Source: an alpha proteobacterium U9-1i (lineage in GTDB: Bacteria > Pseudomonadota > Alphaproteobacteria > Caulobacterales > Aquidulcibacteraceae). From it: a stretch of DNA of 64,000 nt. The stretch is taken from contig BBSY01000003.1 in the NCBI GenBank assembly GCA_000974665.1, forward strand, positions 930,001 to 994,000, written 5' to 3'. The notes under the pieces were generated by a model that had not been told where the DNA came from, did no database searches, and saw only the letters and a program-made list of their open reading frames with translations. Of the stretch, positions 55,703 to 61,063 are shown piece by piece (position 1 is the stretch's first letter; each line of letters starts with the position of its first letter). The position numbers and the translations under genes were made by a program.

Positions 55703-58366
55703 GTGAGCAATGTCGTCGTCGTTGAATCCCCGGCGAAAGCCAAGACGATCAACAAATACCTGGGCGCCGATTACACGGTGTTGGCCAGCTATGGCCACAT
55801 CCGCGATCTGCCGCCCAAGGACGGCTCGGTGCGCCCGGACGAGGATTTCGCGCTCGAATGGGAAATCGACACGAAGAGCGCCAAGCGCGTGAAGGATATC
55901 GCCGACGCCCTGAAGGGCGCCGATCGCCTCATCCTCGCAACCGACCCTGATCGTGAAGGCGAAGCCATTTCCTGGCACGTGCTCGAAGCGCTCAACAATC
56001 GCCGCGCCCTCAAGGGCAAGGATGTTCAGCGCGTCACCTTCAACGCCATCACCAAGGACGCCGTGCGCACGGCGATGGCGAACCCGCGCGATATCGACAT
56101 GCAGCTGGTGGACGCCTACCTCGCCCGTCGCGCGCTTGATTATCTCGTCGGCTTCACGCTTTCGCCGGTGCTGTGGCGCAAGCTTCCCGGCGCACGCTCC
56201 GCGGGCCGCGTGCAGTCTGTGGCGCTGCGCATCATCTCTGACCGCGAACTCGAGATCGAAAAATTCAAACCGCAAGAATATTGGCAGATCTTCGCTGACC
56301 TGCTGACGCCGCGCGGCGAAGCCGTGCAGGCGCGCATTTCCGCGTTTGACGGCAAGAAGCTGAAGCGCCTCGACATCACCGACAAAGACATGGCCGATCG
56401 CGCGCTCGCCGCCGTGAAGGCCGGCCAGTTCGCCGTGTCCGAACTTGAAGCCAAGCCAACGCGTCGCAATCCGCCGCCGCCGTTCACCACCTCGACTCTG
56501 CAGCAAGAAGCCGCGCGCAAACTCGGCTTCAACGCCTCGCGCACCATGCAAGTCGCGCAGCGCCTGTATGAAGGCGTCGACATCGGCGGCGAGACCGTCG
56601 GCCTCATCACCTATATGCGGACCGACGGCGTCCAGATGGACGAGAGCGCCTATCGCGATCTGCGCGGCGTCATCGGCAAGGATTTCGGCGACAAGTACGT
56701 GCCCGAGCAGGTGCGCCGCTATTCGTCGAAGGCCAAGAACGCGCAGGAAGCGCACGAAGCCATCCGCCCAACCGACCCGACCAAGCGCCCCGGCAAGATC
56801 CGGCTCGATGGCGATCAGGCGCGGCTTTACGAACTGATCTGGAAGCGGGCGATGGCCTCGCAGATGGAAGCAGCCTCGATCGAACGCACGACCGTCGATT
56901 TCACCGAGCCGAAGGGCCAAGTTGAACTGCGCGCCACTGGCCAAGTTGTCCTGTTCGACGGCTTCCTCGCGCTTTACCAAGAAGGCCGCGACGACGAGGA
57001 AGACGAAGAAAACCGCCGCCTGCCGCAGATGCGTGTGGGCGATGCGATGAAAGTGGCCGACGCCAAGTCGAGCCAGCATTTCACCGAGCCGCCGCCACGC
57101 TTCTCCGAAGCAAGCCTTGTGAAGCGCCTCGAAGAACTCGGCATCGGCCGGCCGTCCACCTACGCGGCGATCCTCGAAAAGCTGCGCGAGCGGAATTACG
57201 TCCGCACCGACAAGAATCGCTTCATCCCCGAAGACCGCGGACGCGTACTGACGGCGTTTCTGGAAAACTTCTTCGGCCGTTATGTCGAATACGATTTCAC
57301 CGCCGACCTGGAAGAGAAGCTCGATCTGGTCTCCTCCGGCGACATGCCGTGGAAGAAACTGATGCGCGAATTCTGGACGGATTTCGACCAAGCCATCCAA
57401 GGCATCGGCGAGTTGCGCATCCGCGACGTGCTCGACGCGCTCAACGAAGCGCTGGCGCCGCACATCTTCGCGCCGCGCGAGGACGGCTCCGATCCGCGCT
57501 CCTGCCCGACGTGCAAAACCGGCACGATCTCGCTGCGTCTGGGCAAAGCCGGCGCCTTCCTCGGCTGCTCGAACTATCCTGAGTGCAAGTTCACGCGCGC
57601 GCTGACGCCGGGCGAAAACGACGAATCCGGCATCACCGCCGACGGCAAGCTGCTCGGCCAGAACGATGAAGGTGTGGACGTCTTCCTGAAGAACGGCCGC
57701 TTCGGCCCGTATTTCGAGATGGCGAACGGCGGCGATAAGCCCAAGCGCGCCAGCGTGCCGAAAGGCAAAGCCCTCGATGAACTCGATCTCGCCGACGCGC
57801 TCAAATTTTTGCAGCTGCCCCGCGAAGTCGGCATGCACCCGAGCGAAGGCAAAATGGTAAGCGCCAATATCGGGCGCTACGGGCCCTACATTCAGATGGA
57901 GAAAACCTACGTCAATCTGCCGAGCGTGGAGGACGTATTCGAAATCCAGATGAACCGCGCGGTGGCGCTGTTCGAGGAAAAAAAGAACAATCCTGGCAAA
58001 GGCCGCTTCGGCCGCGCAGCGCCCGCGGCACTGAAGGAACTCGGTGAAAGCCCCGTGACAGGCAAGCCGATCAAAGTGATGAACGGCCGCTACGGCGCCT
58101 ATGTCACCGACGGTGAGACGAACGCCACGTTGCCGAAGGAGCAAAAACCGGAAGACGTCACGCTAGACATCGCGCTGCCGCTCCTCGCCGCCCGCGCCGA
58201 AGCCGGCGGCGGCAAGAAAAAACGCCCGGCGAAGAAGGCCGCGGCGAAGAAAGAAGCGCCGACGAAAAAGGAAGCGGCCAAACCGAAGGCCAAGAAAGCG
58301 CCAGCGAAGAAGGCGCCGGCGAAAAAAGCTGTTGCGAAGAAGGCAGCGGCGAAGAAGGCTTCTTAG
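55703..58366 (+). CDS. topA: DNA topoisomerase I
   Basis: An 887-residue type IA topoisomerase that removes negative supercoils. The N-terminal Toprim domain has VVESPAKAKTI and LATDPDREGEAISWH; the nucleophile Tyr is in TYMRTDG. Zinc-finger-like repeats follow (SCPTCKTGTISLRLGKAGAF, then GCSNYPEC), then diverged repeats of the TopoI C-terminal type. The last ~75 residues are Lys/Ala-rich repeats (KKAAAKK, KKAPAKK), a basic tail seen in several alphaproteobacteria. The start is GTG at 55703. The opposite strand is open for 856 codons because of GC-rich codon use and is not a gene. Confidence 0.97.
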   Translation: MSNVVVVESPAKAKTINKYLGADYTVLASYGHIRDLPPKDGSVRPDEDFALEWEIDTKSAKRVKDIADALKGADRLILATDPDREGEAISWHVLEALNNRRALKGKDVQRVTFNAITKDAVRTAMANPRDIDMQLVDAYLARRALDYLVGFTLSPVLWRKLPGARSAGRVQSVALRIISDRELEIEKFKPQEYWQIFADLLTPRGEAVQARISAFDGKKLKRLDITDKDMADRALAAVKAGQFAVSELEAKPTRRNPPPPFTTSTLQQEAARKLGFNASRTMQVAQRLYEGVDIGGETVGLITYMRTDGVQMDESAYRDLRGVIGKDFGDKYVPEQVRRYSSKAKNAQEAHEAIRPTDPTKRPGKIRLDGDQARLYELIWKRAMASQMEAASIERTTVDFTEPKGQVELRATGQVVLFDGFLALYQEGRDDEEDEENRRLPQMRVGDAMKVADAKSSQHFTEPPPRFSEASLVKRLEELGIGRPSTYAAILEKLRERNYVRTDKNRFIPEDRGRVLTAFLENFFGRYVEYDFTADLEEKLDLVSSGDMPWKKLMREFWTDFDQAIQGIGELRIRDVLDALNEALAPHIFAPREDGSDPRSCPTCKTGTISLRLGKAGAFLGCSNYPECKFTRALTPGENDESGITADGKLLGQNDEGVDVFLKNGRFGPYFEMANGGDKPKRASVPKGKALDELDLADALKFLQLPREVGMHPSEGKMVSANIGRYGPYIQMEKTYVNLPSVEDVFEIQMNRAVALFEEKKNNPGKGRFGRAAPAALKELGESPVTGKPIKVMNGRYGAYVTDGETNATLPKEQKPEDVTLDIALPLLAARAEAGGGKKKRPAKKAAAKKEAPTKKEAAKPKAKKAPAKKAPAKKAVAKKAAAKKAS

Positions 58367-58388
58367 GGCTTTTGGCGGCGCCCCATCC

Positions 58389-58420
58389 GGCGCCTCCCTG
58401 AGCTTGTCGAAGGGCGGCGC
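58389..58420 (+). repeat. Left 32-base inverted repeat of the GIY-YIG element
   Basis: GGCGCCTCCCTGAGC, then TTGTCGAAGGGCGGCGC. Its inverted copy at 58716-58747 differs at one base. The core CCCTGAGCTTGTCGAAGGG is itself partly palindromic and is of the type known as an abundant REP in sphingomonads and relatives. Confidence 0.9.
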
Positions 58421-58437
58421 TTGCGCCTATCTGAGAC

Positions 58438-58715
58438 ATGCCCTCTTGGGTCTACATCCTCCGTTGCGGCGATGACTCGTGCTACACCGGCGTCAGCACC
58501 AACTTGGAGCAGCGCCTCGATCAGCACCATCACGGCAAGGTCGGTTACACCGCGAAGCGAAAGCCGATCGAGTTCTTGTGGTCAGCTGAATTCGCGCACC
58601 TTGATGACGCATATGCGTTTGAGAGACAGGTCAAAGGCGCGCGAAGAAGGAAGCGCTCATGCGCAGCGACTGGGCTGAAGTGCAGCGATTGGCGCGGTTG
58701 AAGCGCAAGAGCTAG
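58438..58715 (+). pseudogene. GIY-YIG endonuclease gene with frameshifted 3' end
   Basis: A single-domain GIY-YIG protein. In frame from the ATG at 58438 come the catalytic elements VYILRCGDDSCYTGVS (GIY...YIG), the Arg in LEQRLDQHHHG and the Glu in ERQVKG. After VKG the frame shifts: the family tail (W-S-R-A-K-K-E-A-L-x-R-x-D-W...) is found one frame away, as AKKEALMRSDWAEVQRLAR to a stop at 58713-58715. Read straight, the frame runs on to 58701 with an unrelated tail. About seven bases seem to be lost at the GGCGCGCG tract (58636-58643). The catalytic core is intact, so some function may remain. The intact-frame stop directly abuts the right repeat. Confidence 0.7.
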
Positions 58716-58747
58716 GCGCCGCCCTTCGACAAGCTCAGGGTGGCGCC
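58716..58747 (-). repeat. Right 32-base inverted repeat of the GIY-YIG element
   Basis: GCGCCGCCCTTCGAC, then AAGCTCAGGGTGGCGCC, the reverse complement of 58389-58420 with a single mismatch. With the left copy it encloses a 359-base element between topA and rnr. Confidence 0.9.
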
Positions 58748-58777: not shown

Positions 58778-61063
58778 ATGCCAAAAAAACCACCCCGCCC
58801 CTTCGAACCTCTGACCCGCGAGCGTGTGCTCGAAGCCATCCGCGCCTCCGGCGGCACGGCGCAGAAGAACGATCTTGCGCGTGTCCTTGGCGTCGGGCCG
58901 GAAGACAAAAAGGCGCTGCGAGAAATCCTGCGCGCGCTCGAGGAAGACGGCACGCTCGGCCGCACTGGGCGGCGGCGCTACGCTGACGCGCAAGCCTTGC
59001 CTGAACGCGGCGTGATGGAAGTGATCGACCGTGACGCGGACGGCGAAATGCTCGCCCGCATGCGCGGCGAGGACGGCCTCTTCGGCCCGCACGTGCGCCT
59101 TGCTCCCGGCGATGGCGCCGGGCGCGCGGGTGAAGCGGCGATCGGCATCGGCGACCGCGTTCTTGCGCGGATTGAGCAAACACCGGACGGCGCACAAGCG
59201 CGTGTGATTAAGCGCCTTGGCCAAAGCGCGCATCGCATCCTCGGCGTCTATCGCACCATCAAGGATCGCCACGGCCGCGATTTCAGTGGCGGCCGCGTCG
59301 TGCCGGCGGATCGCAAAGCGCGCAACGAGCTGCTGATCCATCCCGAGCACGTGGGCGCGGCGAAAGACGGTGACCTCGTGCTTGTCGAACTCGCGAGCGG
59401 CCAGCGCGATCGCGCGCATGGGCCCAAACGCGGCATCATCAAAGAAGTCGTCGGCCGCGAGTCCGATCCACGCGCCGCGTCAATTCTCGCGATGCACACG
59501 CATGGCATCCACGAAGGCTTCAGCGCCGACGAACAAGGCCAGGCCGATAGCGCAGAGCCCGCGTCGCTCAAAGGGCGCACCGACCTGCGCAAGCTGCCGC
59601 TGATCACCATCGATCCTGAAGACGCGCGCGACCACGACGACGCGGTGTTCGCGCAAGCTGACGATGACGCCAACAACAAAGGCGGCTGGCGCGTGTGGGT
59701 GGCGATCGCCGATGTCTCCCACTACGTGACGCCCGGCTCCGCGCTCGACCGCGGCGCTTTCAAGCGCGGCAATTCCACTTACTTCCCCGATCGCGTCGCG
59801 CCGATGCTGCCGGAATCGCTCTCCGCTGATCTGTGCTCACTGCGCGAGAACGAGGATCGCGCCTGCCTGGTGGCGGAAATGGTGTTCGACAGCGAAGGCC
59901 GCAAACGCTCGCACCGCTTCACGCGGGCGTTGATGCGATCGGCCGCAAAGCTCTCCTACGAGCAAGCGCAGGCGGCGATCGACGGCAAACCAAATGAGAA
60001 GACAGCGCCGCTGCTCGAGACGATCCTCAAACCGCTTTGGGCCGCGTACGCCTGCGTGTGGAGCGCGCGCGAACATCGCCAGCCGCTCGACATCGACGCA
60101 CCGGAACACAAGATCATCTTCAAGGACGGCAAAGTGGCCGGCGTGAAACGGCGCGAGCGTTTCGATGCGCATAAGCTGATCGAAGAATTCATGATCCAGG
60201 CCAATGTGTGCGCGGCGGAAACTTTAGAAAAACACAAGCGCCCGCTGATCTACCGCATCCACGACAAACCAAGCGACGAGAAGATCGCCGCCCTCACGGA
60301 TTTTCTGCCCACGGTCGATATGAGTTGGGCCAAGGGCCAAAACGTCACTGCAGGGCGCTTCAATCGCATCCTGCACCTCGCGGAAACATCACCAAACAAG
60401 GATATCATCAACGAGGTCGTGCTGCGCACGCAATCGCAAGCCGTCTACTCGCCGCACAATATCGGCCACTTTGGCCTAAACCTCGCGCACTACGCTCACT
60501 TCACTTCGCCCATCCGCCGCTACGCCGATCTCACGGTGCACCGCGCCTTGATCCGGGCGCTCAAGCTTGGCGATGATGGCGTCAGCGACAAGGACGAAGC
60601 GCGCTACGACGAAACGGCTCAGCACATCAGCGAAACCGAGCGCAAGAGCATGGCGGCCGAGCGCGACGCGACCTCGCGCTACATCGCGTCGTTCCTGGCT
60701 GACCGTGTCGGCTCTACCTTCGAAGGCCGCGTCACCGGCGTCACACGCTTTGGCTTGTTCATTCGGTTGGATGAAACCCAGGCTGATGGCCTCGCACCGA
60801 TCCGCTCGCTCGGCGACGAGCACTGGAACCACGATGAGACAGCCCACGCCCTCGTTGGCGACCAAACCGGCGCCCGCTTCCCGCTCGGCATGCGGGTGGA
60901 GGTGCGCCTGGAAGAAGCAACGCCCATTAGCGGCGGGCTCCTGTTCAGCGTGCTGACCGACCCTCAACCGCCCGCGCCAGGCTGGCGGAAATCGCGGCTG
61001 AGCAAGCAGACGCGCGGCGGACCGCGCGAGAGCGATACGAAACGCGGCAAACGTCGCCGCTGA
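58778..61063 (+). CDS. rnr: Ribonuclease R
   Basis: A 761-residue 3'-5' exoribonuclease that degrades structured RNA. An N-terminal winged-helix segment (RERVLEAIRASGGTAQKN) and cold-shock domains precede the RNB catalytic core with DARDHDDAVF, where the Asp residues bind metal, and HFTSPIRRYADLTVHRAL. The S1 domain (~640-720) begins STFEGRVTGVTRFGLFIRLD, and the C terminus is basic. It starts 30 bases behind the right repeat of the GIY-YIG element, so any topA-rnr co-transcription would pass through that element. Confidence 0.97.
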   Translation: MPKKPPRPFEPLTRERVLEAIRASGGTAQKNDLARVLGVGPEDKKALREILRALEEDGTLGRTGRRRYADAQALPERGVMEVIDRDADGEMLARMRGEDGLFGPHVRLAPGDGAGRAGEAAIGIGDRVLARIEQTPDGAQARVIKRLGQSAHRILGVYRTIKDRHGRDFSGGRVVPADRKARNELLIHPEHVGAAKDGDLVLVELASGQRDRAHGPKRGIIKEVVGRESDPRAASILAMHTHGIHEGFSADEQGQADSAEPASLKGRTDLRKLPLITIDPEDARDHDDAVFAQADDDANNKGGWRVWVAIADVSHYVTPGSALDRGAFKRGNSTYFPDRVAPMLPESLSADLCSLRENEDRACLVAEMVFDSEGRKRSHRFTRALMRSAAKLSYEQAQAAIDGKPNEKTAPLLETILKPLWAAYACVWSAREHRQPLDIDAPEHKIIFKDGKVAGVKRRERFDAHKLIEEFMIQANVCAAETLEKHKRPLIYRIHDKPSDEKIAALTDFLPTVDMSWAKGQNVTAGRFNRILHLAETSPNKDIINEVVLRTQSQAVYSPHNIGHFGLNLAHYAHFTSPIRRYADLTVHRALIRALKLGDDGVSDKDEARYDETAQHISETERKSMAAERDATSRYIASFLADRVGSTFEGRVTGVTRFGLFIRLDETQADGLAPIRSLGDEHWNHDETAHALVGDQTGARFPLGMRVEVRLEEATPISGGLLFSVLTDPQPPAPGWRKSRLSKQTRGGPRESDTKRGKRRR

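Follow-up and report, generated by a model that had tools for sequence, protein, structure and literature searches.

The unit between topA and rnr in U9-1i is probably one copy of a small REP/REPIN replicator, analogous to REPIN-RAYT systems, in which an Slx1-like GIY-YIG nuclease would act as the dedicated partner of its cognate REP. The unit lies in a 64-kb stretch of U9-1i DNA (the window), and its gene family and repeats were followed into other bacterial genomes. There, GIY-YIG genes are paired with REPs, the kind of REP is specific to the GIY-YIG subfamily, the prevailing geometry is inverted, the unit is gained or lost as a block, and the nuclease is under purifying selection. We infer from these comparisons that the GIY-YIG nuclease cleaves and mobilizes its REPs.

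The unit in the window and its nuclease

The original prediction described a GIY-YIG gene between topA and rnr that is framed by near-perfect 32-base inverted repeats, and the description held. The left REP arm (58389–58420, forward strand) and the inverted right arm (58716–58747, reverse strand) each span 32 nt, are 97% complementary, and enclose 295 nt. Between them, an open reading frame of 87 aa (58438–58701, forward) encodes a nuclease of the group that we call subfamily A, with residues 3–71 matching Pfam GIY-YIG (PF01541; E 4.7e-15). The flanking 887-aa ORF upstream (55703–58366, forward) and 761-aa ORF downstream (58778–61063, forward) are taken to be topA and rnr, as first named in that prediction. 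The arms hold the core CCCTGAGCTTGTCGAAGGG at 58396–58414 and 58722–58740, and these are the only two sites in the 64-kb window at up to two mismatches, compared with a mean of 0.00 in 100 shuffles; a third copy was not found elsewhere in the window at that threshold. The REP is laid out as GCGCC[A/T]CCC, followed by TGAGCTTGTCGAA and GGGCGGCGC, with GCGCC[A/T]CCC being the tag in the U9-1i genome. Both arms are predicted to fold into DNA hairpins, at −9.2 kcal/mol (z −2.2) for the left and −10.6 kcal/mol (z −2.85) for the right.

The frame of the window gene shifts after the conserved ..QVKG (about 58640), inside the ..VKG.. segment, so this copy is probably broken, if the shift is not a sequencing error. 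Translation of the continuing family frame ends at a TAG (58713–58715, forward) that the right arm follows directly (from 58716), as had been proposed. We regard the window as a decayed A copy with few REPs left. In the 4.05-Mb U9-1i genome the core is rare, with six copies at up to two mismatches, and four small GIY-YIG genes accompany a 721-aa GIY-YIG frame that we take for uvrC by its size. Another of the U9-1i GIY-YIG genes lies between REPIN-like elements with GTCATCCCGG ends, and a further one is followed by a CCCATCCCCGG palindrome.

Membership of the window family in the GIY-YIG superfamily is evident from the domain together with the conserved Tyr, Tyr, Gly, Arg and Glu residues. Those five columns are invariant in the 62 aligned A proteins, which are the ones with open frames of 80–170 aa among the best 80 of at least 560 candidates (a set to which the copy in the congener G002 does not belong). 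In the same set, dN/dS was 0.05–0.17 in 10 close pairs, some with high dS, and A genes are thus under purifying selection. An AlphaFold model of an A protein (mean pLDDT 87) matched UPF0213 proteins as the nearest solved structures (E 1.7e-6 and 4.9e-4; PDB 1zg2, 1ywl) and, weakly, Slx1-Slx4, nucleases of branched DNA (E about 0.02). The modeled fold would fit a hairpin or junction substrate, with the activity itself putative. The standalone A and B proteins scanned carry no Pfam domain other than GIY-YIG, and no NCBIfam model was found for the five subfamily proteins supplied.

In several loci, the A frame runs on without a stop to 350–501 aa (L134, L147, L158, L176, L156, L181, L189, L198, L204, L209, L166). 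A domain scan found a MeaB GTPase in L134 (E 2.3e-106), a SpoU methylase in L204 (1.1e-21), and an FGGY kinase in L166 (2.8e-21); by eye, L147, L158 and L176 resemble one another, as do L156, L181 and L209. The linker of the betaproteobacterial run-on frames resembles translated REPs (VRPEPVEG, LRQAQPER). Genuine gene fusions, created by REPs that happen to be in frame, could account for them.

Framing repeats and their pairing with GIY-YIG subfamilies

For subfamily A, we took the best 80 of at least 560 confirmed candidates from bacterial genomes, picked by protein only and falling into 57 synteny clusters. Record titles in this sample include Sphingomonas, Bradyrhizobium, Acidovorax, Thiocapsa, Thermodesulfobacteriota, Flavobacterium and Pedobacter, as well as Ignavibacteriae, Nitrospinaceae, Candidatus Binatia and Leptolyngbya. 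The core TGAGCTTGTCGAA, at up to one mismatch, occurs within 600 bp of the gene in 57 of these best 80 loci, and its density falls from 4.54/kb at 0–150 bp to 0.04/kb at 4–10 kb, a difference of about 110-fold. The reversed core, used as a control, had no match within 600 bp of the A genes in the same best 80 loci. Random scatter of the repeats with respect to the gene, the outcome that would have spoken against the original prediction, is therefore not what is seen.

The repeats also enclose the gene. Inverted arms that score at least 13 between one 200-bp flank and the other frame 59 of the best 80 A genes; when placements were drawn at random within these loci, 1 of 320 was framed. A further 20 A loci, comprising the best match of each of the first 18 listed A-bearing Alphaproteobacteria genomes plus the chosen G070 and G333, gave 16 of 20 versus 1 of 126. 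The exact core stands on both flanks in the expected orientation at 31 of the best 80 loci; counted by synteny cluster, 24 of the 57 contain one or more such loci. In the prevailing geometry, a plus-strand core lies about 20–50 bp before the gene and a minus-strand core at or just after the stop, with tags, mostly CCGTTCG or CCGCTCA, aimed away from the gene; TGTC is the other common tag of A-type REPs.

Tag orientation is uneven across subfamilies A and B: for A, tags point outward in 31 of 42 cases upstream and 40 of 50 downstream, and for B in 20 of 26 upstream and 15 of 29 downstream. We also considered whether dispersed REP pairs mostly have their tags inside, and rejected the idea on finding 21 tags-inside versus 31 tags-outside neighbor pairs in the best 80 of at least 560 A loci. 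Several GIY-YIG genes from the genus, family and order of the window lie between two whole REPINs.

The labels A to E are motif-based and were set in the present analysis. We compared 61 GIY-YIG genes from the window's genus, family and order at 60 loci, of which 46 are small GIY-YIG genes among the matches listed for G000–G019 and 14 were chosen out of 72 kept for more distant genomes; one locus (L127) carries two GIY-YIG genes. In this set of listed and chosen loci, inverted repeats frame 6 of 7 A, 13 of 23 B and 4 of 6 E genes, compared with 4 of 310 random placements. Because locus choice leaned to core-bearing genomes, the A figure is to be read together with the 80- and 20-locus sets. 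In the same genus, family and order, framing inverted repeats were absent from all 16 C and all 9 D genes (0 of 25 together). Some 16-mers recur among the fetched loci of a genome. With first-pass subfamily labels and four genes unlabeled, they cover 27% (A), 18% (B) and 34% (E) of the 100 bp next to the gene, 7% next to C genes and 0% next to D genes; at 4–10 kb the figure is roughly 1–4%.

B genes were matched in 64 of the Pseudomonadota genomes searched, and we sampled 40 loci from 40 of them (best match per genome, handles above G060, in listing order). Inverted arms frame 31 of these 40 versus 3 of 254 random placements. The motif CGTCATYCC lies within 300 bp of the gene in 23 of the 40 loci, its density declines with distance from 4.17/kb to 0.10/kb, and its reverse does not occur within 1.5 kb of the B genes in these loci. 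B-adjacent REPs can have a CGTC tag, an 8-bp stem starting with AT, a 4-nt loop and a CCA tail, with all elements complete in some (L278, L280, L282, L291).

As judged from the hairpins beside the genes, subfamily A goes with REPs whose TGAG..CGAA stem contains two adjacent G·A mismatches, and subfamily B with perfect-stem, CGTC-tagged REPs. In the sequence outside the gene, a TGAG..CGAA hairpin adjoins 98 of 107 A genes and one of the 16 C genes, and none of the 63 B, 6 E or 9 D genes; a GTC-tagged perfect hairpin adjoins 38 of 63 B genes, six of the 16 C genes, 3 of 107 A genes and one of the 6 E genes, and none of the 9 D genes. When the final 60 bp of the gene are counted as well, the A-type hairpin accompanies 99 of 107 A and 0 of 63 B genes and the B-type 3 of 107 A and 41 of 63 B (p about 1e-32, a value that is too small because related loci are counted). 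Random sites in the same loci have the A-type hairpin in 12 of 498 cases and the B-type in 33 of 498. Among ordinary predicted ORFs with intergenic room, the A-type is found at 45 of 690 versus 91 of 100 A genes in the same windows, and the B-type at 46 of 319 (14.4%) versus 28 of 40 B genes.

On a quick tree of 199 proteins with many unresolved forks, hairpin type, where single, requires two changes; subfamilies A, C, D and E each fall on one side of a branch, and B requires two changes. The A and B genes of a single genome keep their own hairpin types in the printed flanks of G000, G047 and G049, although G049 also has two A cores near a B gene, at distances of about 0.3 and 0.6 kb. Lying close to such repeats is not in itself peculiar to A, B and E, since 6 of 16 C genes have a B-type hairpin beside them and recurring 16-mers take up 7% of the 100 bp next to C genes.

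Within the window's family, the REPINs that accompany subfamily E genes (L074, L078, L088, L101, L112, L117) are of a third type, marked by CCCATTCCCGG / CCCATCCCCGG ends and by GTTTATGGGTCCCGG.

Turnover of the unit, REP number and competing explanations

We searched 30 genomes of the window's genus with the first 208 aa of its rnr ORF and compared 28 rnr loci in 27 genomes, some of them cut by contig ends. Only the window locus carries the gene or the core; neither was seen at rnr in the 26 congeners, and the gene was likewise not encountered there without its repeats, as it might have been had the original prediction erred. No long upstream ORF was found at four of the 25 other rnr sites compared. 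In several congeners (L213–L235) the topA-rnr gap holds another palindromic repeat (like CCTTCTCCC..GGAGAAGGTGGCCCGAAGGGCCGGATGAGG) and assorted small ORFs, which give it the look of a hot spot for insertions.

The congeners G002, G004 and G025 carry A units at other loci. In blastn comparisons of 20-kb loci, the G002 locus (L076) is 73.7% identical to the window locus (L073) over L073 9733–10103, which corresponds to 58376–58746 of the window (forward) and delimits the whole unit, while the G004 locus (L085) is 72.6% identical over L073 9754–10104. In both, homology spans the unit and ends at the REPs, and otherwise only repeat copies align. The match of the G025 locus (66%) takes in most of the gene but, of the left arm, only a part. 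No neighboring proteins are common to the window locus and these three loci at E 1e-20. The G004 copy leaves the family frame; those of G002 and G025 are open, and in the G002 protein the second motif has Ser where Gly is conserved.

Reciprocal empty and occupied sites for the A unit were found in a genus other than the window's, next to genes that we take, from their first codons, to be accC-like (site 1) and gatB-like (site 2). At site 1, G304 has a 574-nt REPIN-gene-REPIN insert before the accC-like gene, the site is occupied too in G131 and in G288 (another family), and G226 has only 2 nt. At site 2, before the gatB-like gene, G226 (490 nt) and G304 (a copy with a stop) are occupied, and the intergenic sequence is 22 nt in G131 and 33 nt in G288. 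None of these three empty sites (2, 22 and 33 nt) contains a REP pair, which implies that gene and REPs are gained and lost together at these sites. The unit had been proposed to be a tiny mobile or homing cassette. The unit-sized insertions and the empty sites favor the mobile part, with mobility deduced from presence and absence; homing in the strict sense is less probable.

In Betaproteobacteria, the gene occupies one syntenic site in 9 loci, with smaller syntenic groups of 6, 4, 3 and 2 among the best 80 of at least 560 candidates; the fixed site indicates that mobility is rare there, and the syntenic groups that the unit is also inherited vertically. At E ≤ 1e-5, relatives of the G002 protein were found in 12 of 72,556 plasmid records, so plasmid-borne spread is not prominent.

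At the genome level, gene and REP number go together. An A gene is present in 41 of 337 Alphaproteobacteria (53 genes, 1–4 per genome), and at least 10 cores, with a maximum of 255, in 23 of 337. Read by eye from tables and with kinship ignored, the counts place an A gene in 15 of 23 core-rich versus 26 of 314 other genomes (odds ratio 21, p 3.6e-10). At least five copies of one CGTC REP pattern occur in 15 of 249 Pseudomonadota, and a B gene in 12 of these 15 versus 52 of the 234 others (p 8e-6, likewise by eye and with kinship ignored; five of the 12 belong to one family). An A gene was undetected in 8 of the 23 core-rich Alphaproteobacteria, with up to 69 cores (G163, G317 and G367: 58–69), and a B gene in G473, G430 and G445 in the presence of 193, 34 and 25 CGTC REPs. 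Such genomes may reflect gene loss, gaps in the many draft assemblies, or another partner, and REPs may persist without the gene. In one genome (G597 C1:3034550–3037228), ten copies of a CGTC REP lie in one orientation, 165–361 bp apart, as a tandem-like array.

The A-type gene is probably the missing enzyme that moves or tends these REPs. In the mechanism that we propose, the nuclease would recognize the REP hairpin and its tag in single-stranded or extruded DNA and cut at the base of the hairpin; host repair would then copy the cut REPIN, and rarely a whole REP-gene-REP unit, into another intergenic site. Decayed copies, such as those in the window and G004, are to be expected from a cut-and-copy life cycle of this kind.

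The main competing explanation, which we consider unlikely, is that the protein is a host maintenance nuclease that trims REP hairpins or cruciforms at replication, the adjoining REPs being its regulatory or terminator sites and something else being the mover. The Slx1-like fold, the low copy number (53 genes in 41 genomes), the purifying selection on A genes, the REP hairpins near gene start and stop, and the stable betaproteobacterial site with its smaller companion groups (best 80 of at least 560) would all suit such a role. Presence or absence as a block with the repeats, and differing positions in congeners whose homology stops at the REPs, would not be expected of a housekeeping gene; presence of the nuclease gene also accompanies high REP number.

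Still less probable is a homing cassette, in which the gene would invade REPINs already in place: its product would cut an uninterrupted REP pair and recombination would copy the gene in, with REPs as its target and not its dependants. I-TevI-type enzymes are GIY-YIG homing endonucleases. That the GIY-YIG family includes such enzymes (PMC1564403) and that the gene lies between REPs make the idea natural, and selfish use of a GIY-YIG nuclease is a likeness that we retain. Empty alleles of a homing element keep an intact recognition site; however, the three empty sites lack a REP pair, on which ground we rejected simple homing into REPINs, and a recognition site of another type is possible. In addition, several genes have a whole REPIN on either side, Pfam detects nothing but GIY-YIG in the standalone A and B proteins, and the repeats travel with the gene. 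That REPs merely gather in roomy intergenic regions where GIY-YIG genes land by chance is very improbable and already disfavored: B-type hairpins do occur at 14.4% of ordinary gene flanks in B loci and near 6 of 16 C genes, but framing repeats are absent from all 25 C and D paralogues, the association is subfamily-specific with arms on both sides, and 91 of 100 A genes stand against 45 of 690 control ORFs.

Relation to known REP systems and implications

In REPIN-RAYT systems, RAYT transposases go with GTAG-tagged REPs (PMC3116915, PMC3733652). The comparison with REP-associated transposases drawn in the original prediction is apt, as A and B genes are framed by inverted REPs of their own family that are also dispersed in the genome. 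In both cases, a nuclease gene is flanked by inverted REPs, many REPs or REPINs are dispersed and non-autonomous, and particular REP families are paired with particular enzymes. The enzymes differ, a GIY-YIG nuclease here and an HUH Y1 transposase in RAYTs, and so do the tags, which here are CGTC, CCGTTCG, CCGCTCA, TGTC and similar. RAYTs have low copy number and long persistence. As a candidate partner of the A and B REPs, a RAYT was rejected: the sole Y1_Tnp gene found in U9-1i lies at another locus (L211, G000 C2:1064003–1064320), and its 1.5-kb flanks contain no copy of the REPs tested, a single bare GTCATTCC octamer apart. It has GGGTGACATACAC upstream and GTGTGTGTCACCC downstream, which look like inverted repeats of its own.

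CGTC-tagged REPs predominate among alphaproteobacterial REPs, and their superfamily is defined by a CGTC tag, an 8–9 bp stem beginning with AT, a 4–5 nt loop and a CCA tail (PMC3733652). Di Nocera et al. (2013) describe them, in the sections of that paper covered here, as having neither a dedicated transposase nor an association with transposase genes (PMC3733652). Some B-adjacent REPs match tag, 8-bp stem, 4-nt loop and tail exactly; in contrast to that description, a GIY-YIG gene is framed by such REPs here. The window REP differs from the superfamily in lacking the CGTC tag and having a TGAG..CGAA stem. Because CGTC or TGTC tags are present on some A-type REPs outside U9-1i, kinship between A-type and CGTC REPs is likely, though not settled.

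The protein shares its fold and catalytic residues with standalone Slx1-like and UPF0213 proteins (1zg2, 1ywl), but is set apart by its REP framing; C and D, also small GIY-YIG proteins, are not framed by inverted repeats. A classical insertion sequence combines terminal inverted repeats with a target-site duplication; the unit has inverted REPs at its ends, and at two sites whose flanks are 76–88% identical no duplication of the target could be seen. A 2006 survey of the GIY-YIG superfamily grouped standalone bacterial proteins with Slx1 and reported a SPOUT methyltransferase fusion in Erythrobacter (PMC1564403); the portion of its text covered here makes no link to REPs, and the word stem "palindrom" does not occur in the paper. 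Within open-licence PMC literature, where broader topics were searched by title among the top matches listed, we found no paper linking GIY-YIG nucleases to REPs, which leaves absence from print unproven, and no later answer, after 2013, on the enzyme of CGTC REPs.

We lean toward a broader reading, held less firmly than that of the unit itself: GIY-YIG nucleases may serve as dedicated mobilizers of CGTC-type REPs and their TGAG..CGAA relatives in Pseudomonadota, Bacteroidota and other phyla, with one subfamily per hairpin type, as a second REPIN system that is independent of RAYTs and the source of most alphaproteobacterial REPs. A specific, testable partner turns the open question of the CGTC REP enzyme into a bench experiment. 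REP-derived linkers may, in addition, have joined the nuclease in frame to host genes. The 2006 survey left open, in the part covered here, whether further GIY-YIG members are molecular parasites (PMC1564403), and our proposal, if true, would bear on that question. It would imply, too, at least two origins of the REPIN lifestyle, based on unrelated nucleases.
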